DNA of 64,000 nt. Source: Candidatus Thorarchaeota archaeon. Its GTDB lineage: Archaea; Asgardarchaeota; Thorarchaeia; Thorarchaeales; Thorarchaeaceae. Each line of letters starts with the position of its first letter. Position 1 is the stretch's first letter. The DNA lies in the NCBI GenBank assembly GCA_021498125.1, contig JAIZWL010000008.1, positions 1-64,000 of the forward strand. Direction: 5' to 3'. Both the position numbers and the translations under genes were made by a program. This document shows positions 4,971 to 60,927 of the stretch, one piece after another. The notes below the pieces were generated by a model that saw nothing but the letters and a program-made list of their open reading frames with translations, had not been told where the DNA came from and ran no database searches.

Positions 4971-5981
4971 ATGACTACCAATATGCTTAATGTATCGTCC
5001 CTGCTAGTAGACGCTATAATCACTCTTGATGATGTCTTAGACGCCTACGGACGAGTGAAAGGCGTTGCTCACAACACTCCTATCTTGACCTCGCGAACAA
5101 TTGATCAATTGACCGGGGCGCAGGTCTATTTCAAGTGCGAGAACTTTCAAAGAGCTGGTGCCTTCAAATTCCGAGGCGCATACAACACTCTAAGTCAGAT
5201 GAGTGCTGAAGAACAGAAGAGAGGGGTCATCACTCACTCCTCTGGCAACCATGCCCAAGCTCTGGCCTTGGCCTCTTCGATCTTGGGAATCAAGGCCACT
5301 GTGATCATGCCTGAAAACTCCGCACGTGTCAAGATCGAAGCTACAAGAGGGTATGGGGCCGAGGTCGTTCTGTGTGAACCCACACTTGAGGCTCGGGAGC
5401 GCACAACCAACGAATTCATCGAGCGTCATGGCTACTTGTTGATCCATCCCTATGATAACGAACGCATCATAGCTGGCGCTGGGACTGCTGCCGTTGAACT
5501 GATCCATGAAGTCCATGAACTTGATGTGATCATGTGTCCTGTCGGGGGTGGCGGTCTCCTCAGTGGAACTGCCATTGCCACTAAAGGCCTTCTTCCTGAC
5601 ACCGCTGTTATTGCAGCTGAACCCGAAAATGCAAATGATGCATATCGTGGTCTCAAGAGTGGCGAGTGGGTGCCGAGCGTAAATCCCATCACGATTGCCG
5701 ACGGACTTAGAACCTCGCTGGGCCGAATCAATTTTCCAATCATCCGGAAGATGGTGAATGACATCATCACGGTCTCGGAGGAGGAGATCGTAGATGCGAT
5801 GCGACTTCTCTGGGAGCGAATGAAGCTGGTTGTGGAACCATCGGGTGCAGTGCCTCTGGCTGGGCTTCTTGCAAGAAAAGAAGTGTTTTCTGGGAAAAGG
5901 ATCGGAATACTTCTCAGCGGCGGAAACATTGACCTTACCGATTTCTTCGATCTATTGCGGGCGAAGATACGCACAATTTAG
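4971..5981 (+). CDS. PLP-dependent threonine/serine dehydratase (or serine racemase-like)
   Basis: Fold-type II PLP enzyme. Seen are the Schiff-base lysine motif AGAFKFRGAYN, the cofactor-phosphate loop VGGGGLLSG and the substrate loop SSGNHAQA. It should deaminate L-threonine or L-serine to the 2-oxoacid and ammonia. At about 336 residues it lacks the C-terminal ACT-like regulatory domain of biosynthetic IlvA, so the catabolic, allosterically simple type or a serine/3-hydroxyaspartate racemase fits better. The frame is open upstream to 4845, but the leader sequence there is not family-like and would overlap the divergent kinase. The start is therefore ATG 4971 or 4983, just before ITLDDVLDAYGRV, which matches the usual family N-terminus. 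Confidence 0.85.
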   Translation: MTTNMLNVSSLLVDAIITLDDVLDAYGRVKGVAHNTPILTSRTIDQLTGAQVYFKCENFQRAGAFKFRGAYNTLSQMSAEEQKRGVITHSSGNHAQALALASSILGIKATVIMPENSARVKIEATRGYGAEVVLCEPTLEARERTTNEFIERHGYLLIHPYDNERIIAGAGTAAVELIHEVHELDVIMCPVGGGGLLSGTAIATKGLLPDTAVIAAEPENANDAYRGLKSGEWVPSVNPITIADGLRTSLGRINFPIIRKMVNDIITVSEEEIVDAMRLLWERMKLVVEPSGAVPLAGLLARKEVFSGKRIGILLSGGNIDLTDFFDLLRAKIRTI

Positions 5982-49600: not shown

Positions 49601-51982
49601 CTAACTTGTCTGTTGTTTTGGCTTCACGAATACAACATACATTACTCCAATGACTACGACTACGAGAATGATTCCCAGCAGGATCAGCAAAGGTGTGATA
49701 TCTGGGGGTGCCGGCTGAGATGTAGTCGTGTTACTTGTACTGGGTGTTGTAGTAGTTGTTGTGGTTGTATTCGATGTGGTCGTGGTGGTTGTAGTGGTCG
49801 TCTGTGCGGCTATGACGGTGTACTCGTAGTATTCTGACCCGTTGAGCAGGGTGGATGTCTTGCCATAGGTGTCATTTGCAGTCACATAGAACTTAACAGT
49901 AGCTCCTTCTGCCTGTGCTGCTATTGTTGCATTGTATCTATTGTCTGCCGTCACGGACATTTGAACAAGTGTCCATGATCCATTATCCACACGGTAATGT
50001 AGCATCACCAGCGAGAGGCTTGGATCCTCGGCTGAAACCTCGACGGAGACATTGTCCTCTTCAGTCGGTGCGTGTGGAGAATAGGCGAGCCCACTCAATT
50101 CCGGTGCGGGATCGGTGTAGAGATAGACATCATCAAAGAGGATTGTCAAGTTCCCGTTGGTTTCAGTATTAGCAACAAGTGACACTCCGGTGATCGTGTC
50201 ATTGACAGTCGTATTGAAGGCCATGCTGAAGTCGTGATAGAGGTCTCGTTGGAGATTGAGCCATGTTCCGGTGGTGTTGACTTCAGGAACGACAATATAC
50301 TTGTCATAGTTCCCGGAGCTCTCGACGGGACTTCCATTAGCAAGAACATAGCCAATGCCGCCAAGATGCTCAGTATAGACGCCAATCATGATGTACTCAT
50401 CGGTCAGACCGGAGAACGATATTAGTTTCCAGTTCAGATCAAAATATAATTCGGTCTGATTATTGATTGGGATATTTCTGATAGTCTGATATATTGAGAC
50501 ATCTTCCTCGTTCGATAGTGTCAGGTTGGCCGCCTTACTCCCCGTTTTTGCATCATCTGTGACAGTGATATTGGGGGTAGTTCCAACTTTACAGTCATCC
50601 CATGAGATGACCTCGGAGCCTACCTCTCCCTGATCTTCGTAGCTCATATCGTTCAATGATGCGGAAACAAAAGCCATCTCATCAAATAGGACACTAATGC
50701 GACCTTGACTATCATGTGCATAGACTTCTATTTGGATCCGTTTCACATAGACATCATTTGTTGAATTGACGGCTCGAATGTCTTCGAACACGCTTCGGTT
50801 AAAGAAATTCCATGTTCCAGTCGTGTTGAATCCTGTTGCATTGATGAATAGGTCTCCTGGTAATCCAATGGCTGGCATTGCCTCTCCGTAAGAGAGCATG
50901 TAGTAGACATTGAAATCCTCATCTGTTCCATTATGGCACTCGGCTCTGACATAGGCATAGACGTGATCGCTTAGGTGTTGCACGTCGTCCAATTGCCAAT
51001 AGAATGTGAAACGACCAGGGTTGAGATCTGTCAGTCGCTTGTCAATATTAGTCCGAAGGTTGGCATAGCTCTCGTAGCCCGTTGTAGCAGCAGTCATATT
51101 TATGCTCCAGTCCCCTTCGTGGGCAGTGGAGCTCTGAACAATATCTGCGGCATTATACGAGGTCCATGTCCATTGATTCCCAGTACCCGTGGCCTCAAAA
51201 TTACCGTGATTGACAGAACCACCGAGTTTGACATCTGTGTCATTGAGCAGGTTCATGTCATCAATAAATACTCGGAGATAGTCAGCGGTCTCAGAGTCCA
51301 GATGTATGTTAATTAAACGAAACTGTGTTGGGGTCTCATTAAACGCTTCCATGAAGTCCCGTGTTAGATTGTGATCAAATGTCTTCCATGAGTCAGTCCC
51401 ATCATTAATTATAAACCGTGTATTGATTGAGGAGTTTACAACTACTGGAGAACCGGACAGGTAGTACCATAATGTCTTTGTCCATGTCGATGCCATTCTC
51501 ACTTCGATGTAAAACACATCACCATCGTCTGGTGCGGGATTCTGTGCAACATAGTAATCAAATTTCAGGGTTGTATTGATGGGGTTGTTCCAATACGGCC
51601 AACTAGTTTGAGTGACTACCAGGTCCGATGAACGTTCTGGATCATTTGTGCTTGTCTGCATTCCCAACGATCTTGACCCCTCGTTTACGGGATCCGGCGA
51701 GGTCGCATACCACGCAAACCGTCCTTTGGTCGCGGTGGTATAATAATCAGAAGGCATATGTGGATCGTTCCACATCTCCATATCTCCGTTAGCAATATGG
51801 TTGGACTGCCACGAGACCCTGCTAAGATTGGTCTCAGAACGAATCATCTTGTTGTCCAAGGTTGGTCTGTTCGTCATGGGCTGTGATGTTTCTTGCCAAT
51901 TATTTGCAAACATTGCAGAGGTCATAGAAAGTATCACAAGAACCAGGATAAGTGGAAGTGGTCTTTGATATCGTTTGCTCAT
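49601..51982 (-). CDS. Large surface protein with Thr-rich stalk (paralogue 1)
   Basis: 793 residues: signal peptide (LPLILVLVILSMTSAMFAN), several repeated beta-rich modules built around NGDMEMW, WYLTV-like strands and FDEMAFV/FDDVYLY endings that resemble carbohydrate-binding or concanavalin-like domains, then an Ig/FN3-like domain (PTEEDNVSVEVSAEDPSLSL), a Thr/Ser-rich stalk, one membrane helix and a KPKQQ tail. The many NxS/T sites suggest heavy glycosylation. It is paralogous over its length to the next gene upstream. Function unknown; probably cell-surface or adhesive. Confidence 0.82.
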   Translation of the reverse strand: MSKRYQRPLPLILVLVILSMTSAMFANNWQETSQPMTNRPTLDNKMIRSETNLSRVSWQSNHIANGDMEMWNDPHMPSDYYTTATKGRFAWYATSPDPVNEGSRSLGMQTSTNDPERSSDLVVTQTSWPYWNNPINTTLKFDYYVAQNPAPDDGDVFYIEVRMASTWTKTLWYYLSGSPVVVNSSINTRFIINDGTDSWKTFDHNLTRDFMEAFNETPTQFRLINIHLDSETADYLRVFIDDMNLLNDTDVKLGGSVNHGNFEATGTGNQWTWTSYNAADIVQSSTAHEGDWSINMTAATTGYESYANLRTNIDKRLTDLNPGRFTFYWQLDDVQHLSDHVYAYVRAECHNGTDEDFNVYYMLSYGEAMPAIGLPGDLFINATGFNTTGTWNFFNRSVFEDIRAVNSTNDVYVKRIQIEVYAHDSQGRISVLFDEMAFVSASLNDMSYEDQGEVGSEVISWDDCKVGTTPNITVTDDAKTGSKAANLTLSNEEDVSIYQTIRNIPINNQTELYFDLNWKLISFSGLTDEYIMIGVYTEHLGGIGYVLANGSPVESSGNYDKYIVVPEVNTTGTWLNLQRDLYHDFSMAFNTTVNDTITGVSLVANTETNGNLTILFDDVYLYTDPAPELSGLAYSPHAPTEEDNVSVEVSAEDPSLSLVMLHYRVDNGSWTLVQMSVTADNRYNATIAAQAEGATVKFYVTANDTYGKTSTLLNGSEYYEYTVIAAQTTTTTTTTTSNTTTTTTTTPSTSNTTTSQPAPPDITPLLILLGIILVVVVIGVMYVVFVKPKQQTS

Positions 51983-52237: not shown

Positions 52238-54613
52238 TCAATCATGTTGCTTTGGACGTTGAGTCACAAAGTACACAATGAACAACGCAACCAGTGCTCC
52301 GATTATGCCAAGTGCAATGAGTACCATAGTGAAGTCTGGAGGCGTGGCTGGTGAAGTGGTGGGTGTAGTACCTGAAGTGGTCGAGGTAGTTGTCGTGGTA
52401 GATGTTGTCTGTGCCTGTACAACTGTGTATGTATAGTACTCTGTTCCGTTGAGAGCTGTTGTGATCTTACCATAGGTGTCATTTGCTGAGACATAGAAAT
52501 CAATTACCGCCCCCACGGATTGAACCGGAATGGCCCCTGTATATTGATCATTAGATGCCTCTGTCATTGTGACCTCTGTCCATGTGCCATTATTGACGCG
52601 ATAGTGGAGCAGCACGTTGTCCAAGCTCGGGTCTACCGCCACTACCGTGACGGTCACAGCATCATTCTGAGTAGGTGCTGTTGGAGTGAACTCAACCCCA
52701 CTCAGTCCGGGTGCAGTATCTGTGTAGAGGTAAATGTCATCAAACAGGATCGTGAGATTTCCGCCGGTCTCGGTACTGGCACAGATATAGACCGTTGTGA
52801 TAGAACTATTGATTGTTGTATTGAATATAGTCTTGAAGTCGTGATAGAGGTCGCGTTGGAAGTTCAGCCATACGTCTGTTGTATTGGCCTCGGGGACCAC
52901 GATATATCTGTCAAATGATCCTACGCTTTCAACGGGACTATTGTTTGCAAGGATGTAGCCTATGGACCCACCATAGTCCTGTTCCACACCAATCATGATA
53001 TATTCATCAGTCTGACCCGAGAATGATAATAACTTCCAATTAAGATCAAGATACAGTTCAGTCGAATTATTGAATGCCATGTTCTGGAGCTCTTGATACA
53101 GATCTGTTGTTTCTCCATTCGTGATGGTCAGATTGGCGGCCTTGCTTCCCGTTTTGGCATCTCCCGTGACGGTAAATTCCGGATAGTCCCCCTGATGACA
53201 ATCGCCCCATGCAAGAACCTCTGATCCGATGTCCCGTTGGTCCTCATAGCTCATGTCGTTCAGGTTTGCTGCGACAAATGCCATCTCATCAAAAAGAACA
53301 CTGATACGACTTTGAGCCTCATAGGCATACACGAGGAGAGTGACTTTCTGCACGATGAGATCGGTTGTCGTGTTGACTGCGCGCACATCTTCAAAGACGC
53401 TTCTGTTGAAATAGTGCCATGCTCCGGTCTCATTGAATCCTGTCGCATTGATGAGGAGGTCTCCTTGCCCACCAATTGTTGGCAACGACTCGCCATAGGA
53501 CAGCATATAGTAGACATCAAATTCGGCATCTGTACCGTTTGAACATTCAACATGAACATAGGAATAGACATCATTGCTCGAATGTTGCAGATCATTCAGT
53601 TGCCAGTAGAAGGTAAACCGATCGGGATTGAGAATGCTCAGTCGTCTTCTGACATAAGTGTCCATGGTTGCCCGACTACGAAAACCTGATGACATTGCCG
53701 TGAGGTTTGCGCTCCACGATCCCTCGTGAGCCATAGAGCTTTGAACTATATCAGCAGGATCTTCGGTTATCCAATACCATGAAATACCTGTGCCAGTGGT
53801 CTCAAAGTTACCGAAATTAGTGTCCCCTCCAATTTTGACTTCTGTCCCATTGAGAAAATGCACATCGTCGATGTATGCTTGAAGGTAGTCATTTGTGACG
53901 CTGTTCAAGTAAAAATTGAATTGATCGAATTGAGTTGGGATCTGACCAAAGGCATCGATGAAATCACGTGTCAGGTTTCGGTCAAGTGTCTTCCACGAGC
54001 CCAGAGTGGAATTAATTATGAAGTAGGCATAATACGAAGAATTTGTCCTGTCTGGTACACCTGATAGATAGTAGTTGAGATATCTGGCTCCTATTGATTC
54101 CATTGTCACGGTGAGATAGAATGCATCTGCATTAGTGCCAAGATTGGGATTTTGATCAATGTAGTAATCGACCTTTAGGGTCGTGTTTGCGGGATTGGCC
54201 CAATAGGTCCACTGTTGTTTTGAGATTCGTAGTTGCGCAGGGTGGTCAGAATCGATGGCCTTCGCCCGCATTCCTAAGGAACGTGATCCCTCGTTGACAG
54301 GTTCAGGAGTCGTGGCATACCATGCCTTTGTTTCGCGGGTTCTATAGGTCGAGAAGTCTGTCGGTCTATGGGTGGTCGCCCATGATTCCATATTGCCATT
54401 TGCGATATGATTGCTCCGCCATACCTCTCTACTGAGGTTGGTCTCGGCGGGAATAAAATTCAGAGGCGGTGAGGCCTGTTCTCTGTTCGATGATGATGGT
54501 GATGATGATGCTTGGCGATCATGTCCAAATGTTGCCAACGGTATTGAACTAATCATGATGATAATGACAAGTAGCGAAAAAAAACCAAGATCTCTCTTAT
54601 GCATAAAAATCAA
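52238..54613 (-). CDS. Large surface protein with Thr-rich stalk (paralogue 2)
   Basis: 791 residues with the same architecture as the neighbouring paralogue: signal peptide, repeated beta modules (SNHIANGNMESW, FDEMAFVAANLNDMSYEDQ), Ig/FN3-like domain (PTQNDAVTVTVVAVDPSLDN), Thr-rich stalk (TTSTTTTTSTT), membrane helix and short basic tail. Shared segments such as LNDMSYEDQ and RDLYHDF show tandem duplication. It starts at ATG 54613; the sequence upstream contains the ATACGTGTACTAG array. Confidence 0.82.
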   Translation of the reverse strand: MIFMHKRDLGFFSLLVIIIMISSIPLATFGHDRQASSSPSSSNREQASPPLNFIPAETNLSREVWRSNHIANGNMESWATTHRPTDFSTYRTRETKAWYATTPEPVNEGSRSLGMRAKAIDSDHPAQLRISKQQWTYWANPANTTLKVDYYIDQNPNLGTNADAFYLTVTMESIGARYLNYYLSGVPDRTNSSYYAYFIINSTLGSWKTLDRNLTRDFIDAFGQIPTQFDQFNFYLNSVTNDYLQAYIDDVHFLNGTEVKIGGDTNFGNFETTGTGISWYWITEDPADIVQSSMAHEGSWSANLTAMSSGFRSRATMDTYVRRRLSILNPDRFTFYWQLNDLQHSSNDVYSYVHVECSNGTDAEFDVYYMLSYGESLPTIGGQGDLLINATGFNETGAWHYFNRSVFEDVRAVNTTTDLIVQKVTLLVYAYEAQSRISVLFDEMAFVAANLNDMSYEDQRDIGSEVLAWGDCHQGDYPEFTVTGDAKTGSKAANLTITNGETTDLYQELQNMAFNNSTELYLDLNWKLLSFSGQTDEYIMIGVEQDYGGSIGYILANNSPVESVGSFDRYIVVPEANTTDVWLNFQRDLYHDFKTIFNTTINSSITTVYICASTETGGNLTILFDDIYLYTDTAPGLSGVEFTPTAPTQNDAVTVTVVAVDPSLDNVLLHYRVNNGTWTEVTMTEASNDQYTGAIPVQSVGAVIDFYVSANDTYGKITTALNGTEYYTYTVVQAQTTSTTTTTSTTSGTTPTTSPATPPDFTMVLIALGIIGALVALFIVYFVTQRPKQHD

Positions 54614-54762: not shown

Positions 54763-54920
54763 AGATCATACGTGTACTAGTCAAGATCATACGTGTACTA
54801 GCATGGTCCTAGTACACGTGTAAAAAATGACCCCTGATATAATGTGTCTACAGGCCATTTCAAGGCAGTTTTTGGAGCGATTTTGCTATGATACGTGTAC
54901 TAGCAGTGTTCGAGTACACC
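54763..54920 (+). repeat. Array of ATACGTGTACTAG motifs (first cluster)
   Basis: Two direct copies of the 18-mer AGATCATACGTGTACTAG start at 54763 and 54784 (period 21 bp). Seven bases after the second comes an inverted copy (CTAGTACACGTGT, 54809-54821). A further copy at 54891-54903 is again followed, after seven bases, by a degenerate inverted half (CGAGTACACC, 54911-54920). The array lies between the start of surface paralogue 2 and the winged-helix gene at 54985. It could be a DNA-binding array or a hairpin-forming element. A near-identical array lies at 59731-59785. Confidence 0.85.
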
Positions 54921-54984
54921 AGCGATTTGGGTAATACCTAAGTTAATATGTGTTCGAGCCAGTTCCTATATTCGGGTATCAAAT

Positions 54985-55332
54985 ATGCCGAAGATTGATC
55001 TTGTACGCCGACCTTCCCTCATCACTCCTCGTCATTTGCTGCGGTATGTCTTCTTCACCGAGATGCAGGTCGAGCAGGCCTCAAAGATTCTCAATGAAAT
55101 CGTGCGGAATGGTGGAGTAGTACCCGACTCGGAATGGGAACGTTTTGTTCTCTCTAGCAGAGGTCTCTATGTGAAAGTGATGCGCAAGCTCCGCGATGTG
55201 GGAATAGTGGAGAAACGCATGGGGCAATACCGATTGACCAAGGACCTCTCCCATTCGCTCTCTAAGATCGCTCAATACTGGAACGAGATTGTTGATTCGT
55301 TTCAGGCTGGGGATCGAGCTATTGCCTTCTGA
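54985..55332 (+). CDS. Winged-helix DNA-binding protein
   Basis: 115 residues. MPKIDLVRRPSLITPRHLLRYVFF leads into helices (QVEQASKILNEIVRNG), a recognition-helix region (SSRGLYVKVMRKLRDVGIVEK) and a wing (RMGQYRLTKDLS), the pattern of small archaeal winged-helix regulators. It starts at ATG 54985. It is directly downstream of the ATACGTGTACTAG array and so is the best candidate for the protein that binds that motif; this is inference from position only. Confidence 0.75.
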   Translation: MPKIDLVRRPSLITPRHLLRYVFFTEMQVEQASKILNEIVRNGGVVPDSEWERFVLSSRGLYVKVMRKLRDVGIVEKRMGQYRLTKDLSHSLSKIAQYWNEIVDSFQAGDRAIAF

Positions 55333-55518
55333 TTAGCTGACACACCTGTTGCCAGTCCGCCATCGGATTACATTTGGAGCCGTTTTCCAGAAACACTTTT
55401 CTAAGCCGAAGCCTTATGAATGGCTTTGTATAGCATTAGAACTGGCTGAAGAGAGGACAGACAAGTTTTATACTCAGCTTCGACATTCATAACATAGCTA
55501 AAGTCTTGAGGGTGCGAG

Positions 55519-57099
55519 ATGCCTGACGATAAATTGACTGAAGAGGATAAGGCCACTATTTTAGATGCTTTTCGCGATGCTTCATTGAGCGATGAAGATA
55601 TCCAGCGGCTGGCTACTGGTGATGATAGTTCAAGTGGTGCGCTTGCCACGATGGATAGTAGGGAGGATCTGATTACTGCTGCTGCTTCGGCTCTCGAGTT
55701 CGTTGAAGGTCTCGACATGGGCGATTCAAAGGCAGAGGAGGCCTCAAGTGACGATGCTATGGCTGGTTTTGATGGACTACTCAGGCGACTTGAGGCATTG
55801 CGTTCTGAGATCGCTTCTCTACAACGAGGTGTAGTTGGAGTATTTGCTGCCCAACTGCTCACATTTCGAGGTAAGGTCGTTGAACTGAAGTCTAAGATCT
55901 CTGAAGAGATGGTTGACAAACTCAAGATGCAGTTCTTCAAGAGCTTCATTGAGACCACCTTTGTAGATATTGTCGATAACGAGTTCGCGTCTCTTGAGAA
56001 GGAGCTCGTTGACAAGATTGTGGCGCAGACTCAGGAGAAATTCAAGGAATTTGCTGAGCGCGTCAGGCAGTCCGAGATTGATCTTCGTACTGCAATTGTT
56101 GAGCAACAAGATATCGTTCGTTCGTTCATGCAGTCGCTTGAAGAAGAGGCCGCTGCTGTACAGGAACAGCTCAAAGAGAAAGATCTTCGGATTAAGAGAT
56201 TGGAAACTGAGGTCAAGCAGCTCCAGCAGCAACTGGACGCGGGTGCTGCTGCGGGCGTGGACATGGATGAGATGCGTCGTAAGATCTCCAATCTCGAGGA
56301 TCAGGTGTCCCGGCTTCAAGATGAATTGGCACGGAAAGAGGCAATCATCAAGGCGCGCACCGAAGAGGCTCAGGCAGCCCGTGCTGAGACCGAAGAGATT
56401 CGCATGCAACTGATCGAGGCGAACTCGCAGATTGAGGCATACAAGACTGAGAAGGCCTCGCTTGTTGCAGCCCCTGCGCATTCTGATGCAGAATTTGAGG
56501 CAATGGCCGAGAAGCTTACCTTACTGGAGCAATCAATGGCTGAGAAACGGCACGAGATCGAAGAGTATACTGCAAAGATTCGTGATCTTGAAGAGCGTCT
56601 GGAAGATGAGCAGAAGGAGAAGGTCGTAGCGGAGGAACTTGCAGCAAAGCGTCTGAGCGAACTGGAATCTATTCAAGATAAGATCACTCACATCAAAGAC
56701 CTCGAGGAAAAGATCTACAATCTCGAGCAGGACATCAAGACCCTTGAAGAAGAAAAGAATATCATTGCCATGCAACGTGAGGCTTATGAGAAGGCCACCC
56801 GCCTCATGGAGAAGGAGCGCGACATGGCCTTAGAGGCACGTGATCTTGCAAATGAACGCGCTCAACGTTACATTAAGGTACTAGGCATGGAGAACAATAC
56901 GAAAGTCTTGCTTCTCGTTGACGAAGTTGGTTCCATGACCTTTTCGGATCTCGGAAAAGCCTTAGGTATCCCCGCAGGCCTTGCAGCCAAACATGCTCGT
57001 GAACTCGAAAAACTGGGTGTGTTGAAGGTTGAGGATGACCGGGCTATTTCTACGTTGAAGCAGCTCGATATTAAAGAAGGAGAGGTCAAAGTAGACTAA
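55519..57099 (+). CDS. Long coiled-coil protein with C-terminal winged helix
   Basis: 526 residues: an acidic N-terminal region (DDKLTEEDKATILDAFRDASLSDEDIQ), a first coiled coil (about 80-125), a second, long coiled coil (about 155-455) and a C-terminal winged-helix domain (KVLLLVDEVGSMTFSDLGKALGIPAGLAAKHARELEKLGVLK). This combination could link DNA to a filament or membrane-associated structure, or act as an SMC-like or spacer-type architectural regulator. No ATPase motif is seen. It starts at ATG 55519 after a GAGGGTG site and is monocistronic. No precise family is recognised. Confidence 0.72.
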   Translation: MPDDKLTEEDKATILDAFRDASLSDEDIQRLATGDDSSSGALATMDSREDLITAAASALEFVEGLDMGDSKAEEASSDDAMAGFDGLLRRLEALRSEIASLQRGVVGVFAAQLLTFRGKVVELKSKISEEMVDKLKMQFFKSFIETTFVDIVDNEFASLEKELVDKIVAQTQEKFKEFAERVRQSEIDLRTAIVEQQDIVRSFMQSLEEEAAAVQEQLKEKDLRIKRLETEVKQLQQQLDAGAAAGVDMDEMRRKISNLEDQVSRLQDELARKEAIIKARTEEAQAARAETEEIRMQLIEANSQIEAYKTEKASLVAAPAHSDAEFEAMAEKLTLLEQSMAEKRHEIEEYTAKIRDLEERLEDEQKEKVVAEELAAKRLSELESIQDKITHIKDLEEKIYNLEQDIKTLEEEKNIIAMQREAYEKATRLMEKERDMALEARDLANERAQRYIKVLGMENNTKVLLLVDEVGSMTFSDLGKALGIPAGLAAKHARELEKLGVLKVEDDRAISTLKQLDIKEGEVKVD

Positions 57100-57166
57100 G
57101 ACTCGTTCAAGCCTCTGCCTCTCCTGTTTCAGTGGTCATATGGTTCTTCTACTATGATGGTGCAAA

Positions 57167-58783
57167 TTAGGTGTGGCTACCAGTTGCTCGGTTCTTTATG
57201 GCCCAGACTGCAACAATAACGGCTACGGTCGTGATCACGCCTGCTGATATGAGTATCATTGTTGTAGAATCAATAGTATATGGGATTGCATCAGGGTGTG
57301 GGGTAGTACCAGTTCCCGTTGTGCTGGTAGTCGTTGTAGTGACGGTTGTTGTAGTGATTGCTGTAAAGACAAAACGAGCATGACTCCACGTTCCCTTTGA
57401 GTTCTGTGCATATACATCAAGAGTGTGCTCGCCTTCAATATTTGGAATTTCTGTTAATACCGTTGAATTGGCCCCCTGATCCCACGAATATTGCACGGTT
57501 GTTGGTACTTCGCTGAAGAGAATCTCAGGGATAGTTCCCGCCCTCATGTGGGAGGTATTCGCATACCCTCGAATCTCAATCTCGATTGGTCCGTAGTATG
57601 GCAGTTGGTACTTCTCCACCTCTGTTCCATCAGGTTTGACCGAGGTCATATTGATGGCGTTGGATTGAACATTCACGCGGAAATAATGGTAATAATTCCC
57701 GCCCCACGGATTACTGTATAGAGGTGCTCCCGCTCCACCAGTGATAACGTGAACAACACCATTGACGGTGAGTCTGTTGAAAAGATGATCATGTCCTACT
57801 GCAAAAAGCGTGACGTTCTTGTCCTCGAAGAGTTGTTGCAGTGCAGCCTTGTTTGTCTGGTTCACATCCATTGCGCTGCCAATGTGTTTTAGGGGATAGA
57901 GTGGTCTGTGGGCAAAGACAAACTTCGTTCGGCTCCCAGCAGCAGTCAGATCATTGACCAACCAGTTCCATTGTTCGCCGCGGATCTGTCCTTCATACCC
58001 CTTTTCTTCACTATTGAGTATGGTGAAATGCACACCCGCAAAGTTGAACGATAAATACAGATTGGGTTCATTAAACTGTTCAAACGCATCAAGGAAATAT
58101 TGTGGTCGTGGCGTTCCCTGTGAATCCTGATAGTCATGGTTTCCTATGACCGCATAGATGGGCACATAATGTCCAAGCCTATCTGAAATATTGGTGAATT
58201 TCGACCAAGTGTTCCAGTTGGTGGAATCACTTGTTGATAGTGAATAGATATAATCCCCAGTCATGACCACGATATCGGGATCTTCCGCAATCACCTGGTC
58301 AATGATCTCACCAAGCACTGCTGGTTGCTCTGGTGCTGTATCGCTGCCCGGCCTGTTGTCCCCCAGAATGATCAGCTTGAATGGTTGACCATCAGCAGGT
58401 GCGGTCTTGAAGTGATAGATTGCGCTGGTCGTGCTGTTGGAACTCACACGATAGTAGTAGGTAGTATTAGTCTTGAGATGATCTATATCCGCCTTATGGG
58501 TGACCGATAGGGTCGAGTTGACACTGCTCATGTTTAGATTGCTGTCTGTATATCCAAATTCCACTACTGTGTCTGACATTCCGTTAGTCTTCCACATGAT
58601 CCTCACAGATTGATTTGTGACCAGATGGACTGTCGGTCCGCGAATGATCGTCACTGTGTCTGCAAGCTTGTGCTCGGTACTTGATGAAACTGTTGGCATA
58701 ATGGGACTCTTCGAGTGAGTGAGACCCATGCTTGTGATCATGATGACTGCTACAAATATCGGCAACAGGCGTTTGATTGTCAT
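57167..58783 (-). CDS. Exported purple-acid-phosphatase-like metallophosphoesterase
   Basis: 538 residues: signal peptide, an N-terminal FN3/purple acid phosphatase domain (VRIMWKTNGMSDTVVEFGYT), then the calcineurin-like catalytic domain with LGDNRPG, VMTGDYIYS, VIGNHDY, VFAHRPLY and AVGHDHLF in order (two-metal phosphoesterase), a C-terminal Ig-like part, a Thr-rich stalk (TTTTVTTTTTSTT), a membrane helix and a short tail. It would act outside the cell, held to the membrane, releasing phosphate from organic esters or nucleotides. It starts at ATG 58783. Confidence 0.9.
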   Translation of the reverse strand: MTIKRLLPIFVAVIMITSMGLTHSKSPIMPTVSSSTEHKLADTVTIIRGPTVHLVTNQSVRIMWKTNGMSDTVVEFGYTDSNLNMSSVNSTLSVTHKADIDHLKTNTTYYYRVSSNSTTSAIYHFKTAPADGQPFKLIILGDNRPGSDTAPEQPAVLGEIIDQVIAEDPDIVVMTGDYIYSLSTSDSTNWNTWSKFTNISDRLGHYVPIYAVIGNHDYQDSQGTPRPQYFLDAFEQFNEPNLYLSFNFAGVHFTILNSEEKGYEGQIRGEQWNWLVNDLTAAGSRTKFVFAHRPLYPLKHIGSAMDVNQTNKAALQQLFEDKNVTLFAVGHDHLFNRLTVNGVVHVITGGAGAPLYSNPWGGNYYHYFRVNVQSNAINMTSVKPDGTEVEKYQLPYYGPIEIEIRGYANTSHMRAGTIPEILFSEVPTTVQYSWDQGANSTVLTEIPNIEGEHTLDVYAQNSKGTWSHARFVFTAITTTTVTTTTTSTTGTGTTPHPDAIPYTIDSTTMILISAGVITTVAVIVAVWAIKNRATGSHT

Positions 58784-58886
58784 TTGAATCAGATAATAGT
58801 ATCAGTTGGAGAACAAAAGATTATTGGCCTGTTCTTGTCACTTGAGTTGCATAGGTTCGCTATTCTCCTGATAGGTTGTGTTACGA

Positions 58887-59690
58887 ATGTGTGACTTGCT
58901 CGGCCTCTCCTTTAATCGATCTGTGAATGCACGAATATCGCTGGATGTCTTTCAACAAGCAGGACGCGAAAATCCTGACGGATGGGGCATTGCGGTCTAT
59001 CCACACGGCCACCTCCAAATATACAAAGAACCACGACCTGCTGACTCAAGCAAGCTCTATGATTTTGTCGAATCGCATCTGGAGTCTTCAATATTCATCT
59101 CTCATGTCCGAAGGACAACACGAGGCCGTGTGAGCTATCTCAACACGCATCCATTCTATCGTCAGGTCAAATGGAACAATCAATTTGTCGAGTTCTCACT
59201 TGCTCATAATGGCACTCTTGTTGATCTGAATGGCCTTGAGACAGGGAACTATGTTCCACTCGGTGATACTGACTCGGAGTATCTATTGTGTCATCTGCTC
59301 AATTACTTTGATTCGCTTGGCATTGAGGAATGGAACGATCACGTCTTCAAAGAACTAGAGATGCACCTTCGGGAGATCAATCATGGATCAAATACTTTGA
59401 ACTGCATCTTTTCTGATGGAACGTATCTGTACTGTTATTCGGATATTGGGGCTCATAATGGTGGGCTTCATTTTGTCAAGAGGCAATTTCCCTTCGGAAC
59501 AGTGCACCTAAAACGTGAAGAGCGTGAGCTTGGCTCTGTGCATGTTTCTGTAGATCTTGATGAGCAAAAGGCTCGTGATAGTGTTGGTCACATAGTCAGT
59601 ACTGAACGGCTCACATACGAGAATTGGAAACCTATCGGTGATGGTCACTTGCTTGTCTTGAAGGATGGTCAGCCCGTCTATCATTCGTAG
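58887..59690 (+). CDS. Class-II glutamine amidotransferase (YafJ/GATase_4-like)
   Basis: 267 residues beginning MCDLLGLS, so Cys2 would be the N-terminal nucleophile after Met removal; this fixes the start at ATG 58887. Other family motifs are NPDGWGIAVY, SHVRRTTRG, LAHNGTLVD and DTDSEYLLCHLL. Stand-alone members such as YafJ and Dug3 hydrolyse gamma-glutamyl amides or peptides; the substrate here is unknown. It is monocistronic; the second repeat array follows 40 bp downstream. Confidence 0.88.
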   Translation: MCDLLGLSFNRSVNARISLDVFQQAGRENPDGWGIAVYPHGHLQIYKEPRPADSSKLYDFVESHLESSIFISHVRRTTRGRVSYLNTHPFYRQVKWNNQFVEFSLAHNGTLVDLNGLETGNYVPLGDTDSEYLLCHLLNYFDSLGIEEWNDHVFKELEMHLREINHGSNTLNCIFSDGTYLYCYSDIGAHNGGLHFVKRQFPFGTVHLKREERELGSVHVSVDLDEQKARDSVGHIVSTERLTYENWKPIGDGHLLVLKDGQPVYHS

Positions 59691-59730
59691 AACAATTTTA
59701 TTTATATCACGCTTGGACTGTTGTAAATTT

Positions 59731-59785
59731 ATACGTGTACTAGCCAATTGCATACGTGTACTAGTACTCATCTAGTACACGTATG
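59731..59785 (+). repeat. Array of ATACGTGTACTAG motifs (second cluster)
   Basis: ATACGTGTACTAG occurs at 59731-59743 and 59752-59764 (8-base spacer, period 21), then after seven bases inverted at 59772-59784. The last two copies form a perfect 14-bp stem with a 7-base loop (59751-59785). Spacers and order are the same as in the 54.76 kb cluster. It lies between the 3' ends of two convergent genes, so a plain promoter operator is unlikely here; transcription termination or a structural site is possible. Confidence 0.85.
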
Positions 59786-59820: not shown

Positions 59821-60927
59821 TTATTTCAAGATTTCAACAATTCTGTCAAGACCTGTAGTCAGCTTACTTGTATCGTGGCCGTATCCCAGTCTGAGATGCT
59901 GGCTCATCAGAAAATGATCACCTGGTGCTATTAGTACGCTTTTCTCTTTGATCAATCTATTTGCAAGTTCAACCGAATCTATATCTCTGTCATATCTCAT
60001 GAGACAGATCGCCGAGGCCTCGGGTGGAATGCATTCGAAGATGTCGTTATTCTGTTTCAGCCAGTCCTCTACAACTCTCCAATTAGTTCTCAAGATGTGG
60101 CGTGTTCGATCAAGAATGCTCTCGCGCATCTCCTGTTCAAGGACGATTGTTGCCAGATGGTCGCTCAGTGCTGAAGGCGCGATGCTCGTGTAATCTGTAT
60201 ACGCCCAGAGCTCCTCGATCTTCGCAGCGTCTTTTGTTGCGACCCATCCTATTCTCAGACCGGGAACCGCGTATGACTTTGATAGAGTCCCTGTGACCAA
60301 TGTCTTTTCATAGTGGTCCCACATAGTTGGAGAGAGTTTATCACCAAGTTCAGCCTCACGATAGGCCTCGTCAGATATGATCCATACGTCGAGATCCTCT
60401 GCAATATCTGCGATCGCTCGAAGCTCCTCTGCAGTTAGCACAGCTCCTGTAGGATTGTTCGGTGTGCAGATTGCGATTGCTGCTGTGTTCTTAGAGATCT
60501 TGTCTTTGAGCTCTTCGATATCCACCGCCCAGCGTGTACCATCATTCTTGAGCCAAAACGCCTCTCGCTTGAGACCCAGCATTTTTGCGAGCCCCCAGAT
60601 CTGCATGTAGTTTGGCAGGAGCATAAGGATCTCATCACGGGACTCCTCGCGAGCAATATTCCACATGGTCGCCATGTTGGCCTCGGATCCACCATTTGTG
60701 ACGATGATGTTGTCTTCTCCGGCTCCGGGATAGAGATCCGCGATCCTCTGTCTGAGAAGTCTGCTTCCGTTCGTCTGCGTGTATCCGAGCTTCACATCAT
60801 GAAGATCTTCAACATCGACCAGCTCACTAAGCAGAAGTGGTTCTATGCCACTCTCGCTTAAGTTGATCTCAACGATATGTTCCCATAAGGACTGAATTCG
60901 TTCGAGTTCGAAGACATCTATTCTCAT
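59821..60927 (-). CDS. PLP-dependent aminotransferase, class I/II
   Basis: 368 residues of fold-type I: VTNGGSEANMATMWNI (cofactor-phosphate region), TPNNPTGAVLTAEEL, ISDEAYREAEL (Asp and Tyr of the PLP site), Schiff-base lysine in TLSKSYAVPGLRIGW and the carboxylate-binding Arg in LRLGYG. The overall form resembles small aspartate/aromatic-type or capreomycidine-synthase-like members; the substrate is not defined. It starts at ATG 60927. A cupin gene lies 143 bp upstream on the same strand. Confidence 0.9.
   Translation of the reverse strand: MRIDVFELERIQSLWEHIVEINLSESGIEPLLLSELVDVEDLHDVKLGYTQTNGSRLLRQRIADLYPGAGEDNIIVTNGGSEANMATMWNIAREESRDEILMLLPNYMQIWGLAKMLGLKREAFWLKNDGTRWAVDIEELKDKISKNTAAIAICTPNNPTGAVLTAEELRAIADIAEDLDVWIISDEAYREAELGDKLSPTMWDHYEKTLVTGTLSKSYAVPGLRIGWVATKDAAKIEELWAYTDYTSIAPSALSDHLATIVLEQEMRESILDRTRHILRTNWRVVEDWLKQNNDIFECIPPEASAICLMRYDRDIDSVELANRLIKEKSVLIAPGDHFLMSQHLRLGYGHDTSKLTTGLDRIVEILK

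Follow-up and report, generated by a model that had tools for sequence, protein, structure and literature searches.

To our knowledge, the DNA word is known for almost no regulator of Asgard-type archaea. Regulators of the MarR/PadR/GntR-type families usually repress their own genes. The operator of Ss-LrpB in Sulfolobus solfataricus is composed of juxtaposed sites that are bound cooperatively by three dimers, with wrapping of the DNA; its word is a 15-bp palindrome, one site pair is reported to be 20 bp apart from centre to centre, the protein is autoregulated, and many of its genomic sites lie off promoters (PMC4046817). The sites of SegB lie mostly inside genes (PMC12284271). Here we analysed 64,000 nucleotides (the window; bases 1-64000 of contig C8) from the genome of a Candidatus Thorarchaeota archaeon (14 contigs, 3.11 Mb), in which two arrays of a short word stand about 5 kb apart. 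We read these arrays as putative cooperative multi-site operators of an autoregulated winged-helix protein of 117 amino acids (aa), expanded in one species, and give this reading a probability of roughly two in three.

Each array (array 1, 54768-54821; array 2, 59731-59784) consists of two half-sites in direct orientation separated by 8 bases and, after a further 7 bases, a third half-site in inverted orientation. The 13-base word, ATACGTGTACTAG with the core ACGTGTACT, is present in the window in six exact copies and one copy with a single mismatch (54809-54821, minus strand). These matches confirmed the order of motifs and spacers described in an earlier note made from the sequence; of the coordinates given there for array 1, the end (54821) was right and the start (54763) was 5 bases early. 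A partial third unit (54891-54923) keeps the 7-base spacing, as had been noticed, with its inverted copy degraded. The core of its isolated half-site begins 102 bp past the core of array 1 half-site 2 (about 10 helical turns).

We searched the 3.11 Mb of the genome for the three-part unit (27 specified bases, no more than 3 mismatches), using the reversed pattern as control. This two-spacer scan, which the earlier note had proposed, found five units (four of them perfect) at C8:54770, C8:59733, C6:51299, C6:89543 and C5:22301, whereas the reversed pattern had no match in the genome. Clearly, a chance origin of the arrays is excluded. In five relatives searched, three of them of the same genus, the three-part unit gave no match. 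The inverted pair ACGTGTACT-N11-AGTACACGT gave six exact and two weaker matches in the genome. The units have in common their half-sites and, in part, the 8-base spacer, which contains CAAGA in four of five units and has C directly before ATACGTG in all five; the 7-base spacer and the flanks differ. The claim that spacer sequences differ between arrays therefore holds for the 7-base spacer, which looks random, but not fully for the 8-base spacer.

C5, C6 and C8 carry seven clusters of exact cores; outside these clusters, core matches are mostly single and their number is near chance. The five units are confined to the same three contigs (422 kb of the genome), with none on the 1.55-Mb contig. 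Based on gene calls from open reading frames (ORFs), of which those of at least 90 aa cover about 87-91% of the sequence, the five units are all intergenic, as are the remaining clusters. We rejected the possibility that C5, C6 and C8 are contaminant contigs, because their tetranucleotide profiles correlate with that of C1 at 0.96-0.98.

The core also occurs as pairs and palindromes at whole-helical-turn spacings, with centre-to-centre distances within clusters of 9, 20-22, 30-31, 40-43, 52, 82, 102, 117 and 161 bp. Distances between adjacent half-sites fit a period of ~10.5-10.7 bp: the Rayleigh R was 0.79, compared with a mean of 0.32 after the distances were shifted by up to 5 bp (0 of 2000 jittered sets as high), in a statistic where the recurring 20/21 spacings of the repeated unit are not all independent and most distinct values show the same pattern. 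Such agreement with the helical repeat fits phased cooperative binding by a protein; an RNA stem would not need it.

A weaker pair of sites, C1:383474 and C1:383557, pointed to the gene for the 117-aa protein, which starts at C1:383584. In this genome its promoter carries exact cores of the array type at -110 and -27, placing the word in the promoter of the candidate regulator's own gene, as expected for autoregulation. The gene was present in 26 of 28 sampled genomes of the family, with one full copy in each (G017 has an additional fragment at a contig end). Among the first 15 family genomes, 10 carry sites upstream of the gene, and the 2.25 kb of upstream sequence contained 23 CGTKTACY sites compared with 5 in the remaining 60.7 kb of the loci. 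As a test set we used 12 genomes fetched afterwards, when the distribution of the gene was searched: all 12 have upstream sites (27 in 1.8 kb, compared with 1 in 34 kb of flanks), and the minus and plus sites are 82-84 bp apart in 11 of them. Altogether, sites are present within 150 bp upstream of the gene in 22 of the 27 genomes of the family, most of which pair a minus with a plus site at that distance (~8 turns); these genomes are related and their counts are not independent samples, and the DNA between the two sites is divergent. A conserved AAGSTTTTTCA-like element, which resembles the core promoter, precedes the plus site. Among ten genomes searched for the perfect palindrome GTAMACGTKTAC, four (G004, G006, G007 and G068, belonging to three genera) have exactly one, always at the promoter of the 117-aa gene.

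The predicted fold of the 117-aa protein (mean pLDDT 84) is a winged helix that carries a long C-terminal helix. The Foldseek neighbours of the model are LmrR, YodB, Rv2887 and a fragment of PdhR, with probabilities up to 0.98 and E-values no better than 0.015. The protein has no Pfam match above cut-off and no NCBIfam match; its score against MarR_2 (18.6 bits) is below the cut-off of 27 and does not place it in a MarR-type family. Outside the genome family there are weak matches only, in two other families. The putative recognition helix begins with the sequence SKQS, which is invariant in 15 genomes. Designed pentatricopeptide-repeat (PPR) chains in PDB also matched the profile of the protein (E 1e-7); we set them aside because of the repetitive helical nature of these designs and because the fold search favoured winged helices.

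Two side observations concern the same protein and its word. In alignment A6 (columns 75-85), the genus that uses ACGTGTACT has two extra residues in the wing, which carries Arg (VRYG) in that genus compared with Asn (VNYG) in most users of ACGTTTACT; in G009, which likewise has G-type sites, the residue is Lys. Word and wing may have co-evolved. In G012, a fumarase-like gene (named by inspection) has at its start two perfect palindromes spaced by 78 bp (G012:C30:3425-3514, locus L179), which suggests that this gene is another target in that species, and a TBP-like gene (L175) has a further perfect palindrome at its 3' end.

Judging by its positions across the family, above all at the promoter of the 117-aa gene but also upstream of two other genes, the motif is older than the arrays. 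Upstream of a gene for an 89-aa protein (C5:125226-125581), different genera retain half-site distances of ~43, 161 and 40 bp, and a TTTATAT box separates the last two half-sites. Upstream of a geranylgeranyl-reductase-like gene (C5:132596-132883; NCBIfam GG-red-SF above cut-off), distances of 40, 31, 9, 30, 117 and 9 bp are identical in this genome and G003, much of the intervening DNA having diverged between the two, and related sites recur in a third genus. The word is thus repeated across genera at conserved positions before both orthologous targets. The earlier note had named absence of the pattern from the rest of this genome and from related genomes as a ground for refutation; this did not apply, as the motif was found at further places both in this genome and in its relatives. 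A restriction of the motif to this species, as the essentially empty first scan of relatives had implied, proved wrong, since that scan had fixed one spacing. In G001, every close inverted pair is at 19 bp instead of 20, indicating that one species tends to use one geometry.

The 89-aa protein was considered as the binder and rejected (low-confidence model, mean pLDDT 66; no significant structural match). Its gene has a strongly conserved leader, GTCAGCCGCCGGGAGGGCTAGAC, directly before the start codon (L039, G000:C5, ~5580-5616, and orthologues; alignment A3). The leader can form a hairpin, and in G004 it reads TTTTAACCGCCGGGAGGGTTAAAC, with the stem kept through changes on both sides; translational control of this highly conserved small protein is possible. 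Beside the distal half-sites upstream of the gene there is a second conserved box, about TGTTNCGCGCCAAA (L039, ~5380-5410, alignment A3), which is probably the site of another factor.

In the reading we prefer, the arrays would serve as docking sites for a small dimeric, sequence-specific winged-helix protein. With neighbouring half-sites on one face of the helix, adjacent binding of several dimers would be possible, with bending, wrapping or looping of the DNA. We consider the 117-aa protein the most probable binder. At its own promoter, the plus site lies between the core promoter and the start codon and the minus site is 8 turns off, so that the protein probably represses itself by looping; we infer negative autoregulation through two looped operators as the simplest reading of these sites. 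The 89-aa and geranylgeranyl-reductase-like genes would be conserved targets. The arrays in the window share the exact core with the operator of the 117-aa gene, and for this reason we read them as putative further operators of the same protein, which would be lineage-specific additions to its target set.

Several points weigh against this reading. Sites are missing from the promoter of the 117-aa gene in 5 of the 27 family genomes, among them G002 and G003, which still carry half-sites at the hub of the 89-aa gene. Two of the five units are located between convergent gene ends, away from promoters, and a perfect GTAMACGTKTAC palindrome is absent from the genome of the window. The word might also be recognised by another protein, which would then regulate the 117-aa gene, and the relatedness of the genomes compared reduces the weight of their agreement.

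That operators of the same kind are bound by a different protein, which would also control the 117-aa gene, is unlikely but deserves serious consideration. Such a protein might be Lrp-like, another helix-turn-helix (HTH) protein or the product of the gene at 54985. A regulator gene can be a target instead of the source of the binder, and winged-helix or HTH genes lie near several sites (54985; an HTH_23 gene at C5:128084; a TrmB-like gene at C1 ~381.6 kb). However, the sole perfect palindrome of four whole genomes falls at the promoter of the 117-aa gene. As for the 54985 protein, its orthologue in G002, a genome of the same genus, is 87% identical and encoded at a locus without the motif, which makes it a poor candidate; it showed no family match and no significant similarity to the 117-aa protein, and is probably a neighbour of array 1 rather than its binder. 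Of the options listed in the earlier note, a regulator's binding site is thus the best supported, but the regulator named there is not. It is rather doubtful that the five units are species-specific wrapped nucleoprotein sites, at which the local autoregulator would either have taken on the organisation of a chromosomal domain or be titrated by decoys. Chromosome-organising or partition sites (parS- or SegB-like), marking a domain and bound by a segregation or nucleoid protein, are improbable. The confinement of the units to three contigs, the two units between convergent gene ends, a G001 array likewise near convergent ends, and the adjacency in G012 of genes from C5 and C6 of this genome would all suit them; but the ancestral sites are linked to promoters and present on C1 too, the units are missing from the same-genus genomes searched, the word differs from the SegB site TCTAGASTCTAGA (PMC12284271), and the ORFs of C5, C6 and C8 contained no ParA-type Walker motif. 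Clustering near the origin, suggested earlier, was not seen either: both Cdc6_C genes are on C2, which has no arrays and only scattered weak matches near these genes, unlike the origin recognition box (ORB) arrays by orc1/cdc6, and at the hub there is no clear turn in cumulative GC skew.

Short mobile or self-copying repeats of the REP (repetitive extragenic palindromic) or MITE (miniature inverted-repeat transposable element) kind, recombinase core sites with 13-bp arms and a 7-bp core (as in FRT/loxP), or insertion ends are very improbable explanations. The spread is species-specific, the 8-base spacer is partly common to units, arm and core lengths are like those of tyrosine-recombinase sites, and the gene order between the arrays is rearranged relative to relatives, in a comparison that gave no clean junction. 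Similarity nevertheless ends at the unit edges, the genes on either side of the arrays included no recognised integrase or transposase, and old promoters retain half-sites at spacings that do not fit a recombinase core; that the arrays are the ends of an inserted segment, another earlier suggestion, is unlikely also because the unit stands singly at three other places. A plasmid or viral property was rejected, with no plasmid match and no viral contig; one motif hit in the GTDB contigs, in Halobacillus, is probably due to chance, in a set where records near this genome may be left out. We give hardly any credence to RNA hairpins acting as terminators or processing signals: inverted pairs do form 13-bp stems, and array 2 and the C6:89.4-kb unit are both flanked by convergent genes, but the direct repeats, lone half-sites, promoter positions and helical-turn spacing are conserved, and an RNA stem has no need of these.

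The gene calls agree with the description of one array as adjoining a winged-helix gene and the other as lying between convergent 3' ends. Array 1 is between divergent genes, encoding a secreted-type protein of 791 aa (minus) and the 115-aa protein at 54985 (plus); array 2, between the glutamine amidotransferase and aminotransferase genes, has no adjacent promoter. The arrays may act on the 54985 gene and its divergent neighbour, or they may serve as decoys or structural sites. The cluster at C6:89.4-89.6 kb is also between convergent gene ends.

Table 1. Half-sites, spacers and adjoining genes of the two arrays in the window.
Feature	Position	Strand	Remark
Array 1, half-site 1, ATACGTGTACTAG	54768..54780	+	exact match
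Array 1, 8-base spacer TCAAGATC	54781..54788	+	partly conserved between units of the genome
Array 1, half-site 2, direct orientation, 21 bp from half-site 1	54789..54801	+	exact match
Array 1, 7-base spacer CATGGTC	54802..54808	+	no conservation
Array 1, inverted half-site ACACGTGTACTAG	54809..54821	-	one mismatch, exact core
Isolated half-site of partial third unit (54891-54923)	54891..54903	+	exact match
Degraded inverted partner of partial third unit, 7-base spacer kept	54911..54923	-	core with 2 mismatches
115-aa winged-helix-like gene adjoining array 1	54985..55332	+	
Class II glutamine amidotransferase gene, end 40 bp before array 2	58878..59690	+	Pfam PF13230
Array 2, half-site 1	59731..59743	+	exact match
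Array 2, 8-base spacer CCAATTGC	59744..59751	+	
Array 2, half-site 2	59752..59764	+	exact match
Array 2, inverted half-site, 7-base spacer after half-site 2	59772..59784	-	exact match
Aminotransferase gene, convergent on array 2	59821..60927	-	Pfam PF00155

Between the arrays (54985-57099), the 115-aa winged-helix gene adjoins a gene for a 526-aa coiled-coil/winged-helix protein, as it does across the family; the two are tandem here and convergent in relatives, indicating that the segment between the arrays has been rearranged. Before array 1, tandem genes at 49601-51982 and 52238-54613 encode paralogous secreted-type proteins of ~790 aa and share a DNA repeat; both proteins end in a Thr-rich stretch and a C-terminal membrane anchor. 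Elsewhere, the 3' end of C6 and the 5' end of C9 share a repeat-spacer array resembling a CRISPR array, so these contigs are probably neighbours in the chromosome. The genome has genes for an Arf/Roc-like GTPase, an EMC3-like protein and two Cdc6 proteins, a set that suggests an archaeon of the Asgard type.

Compared with described systems, the arrays would work like the operator of Ss-LrpB, as multi-site and putatively cooperative and autoregulatory operators, some of them off promoters. They do not belong to that family: the Ss-LrpB word, TTGCAAAATTTGCAA, is different, and the candidate protein is not Lrp-like but has a weak, sub-threshold MarR-type match; for the three-part layout with 8- and 7-base spacers (plus, plus, minus), we found no description. 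With MarR/PadR/GntR-type repressors such as LmrR and YodB, the modelled 117-aa protein has in common the small winged helix; it differs in its long C-terminal helix and in that its strong matches are confined to one genome family. Like SegB sites and parS, the arrays are clustered, multiple copies of a short word on few contigs, whereas the word differs, is intergenic and has no segregation genes found near it. A word, its geometry, a candidate protein, a family-wide putative autoregulatory operator and two further targets come together here in testable form, and from the additional arrays of this species one would learn how multi-site operators, some of them off promoters, are gained by a regulon.

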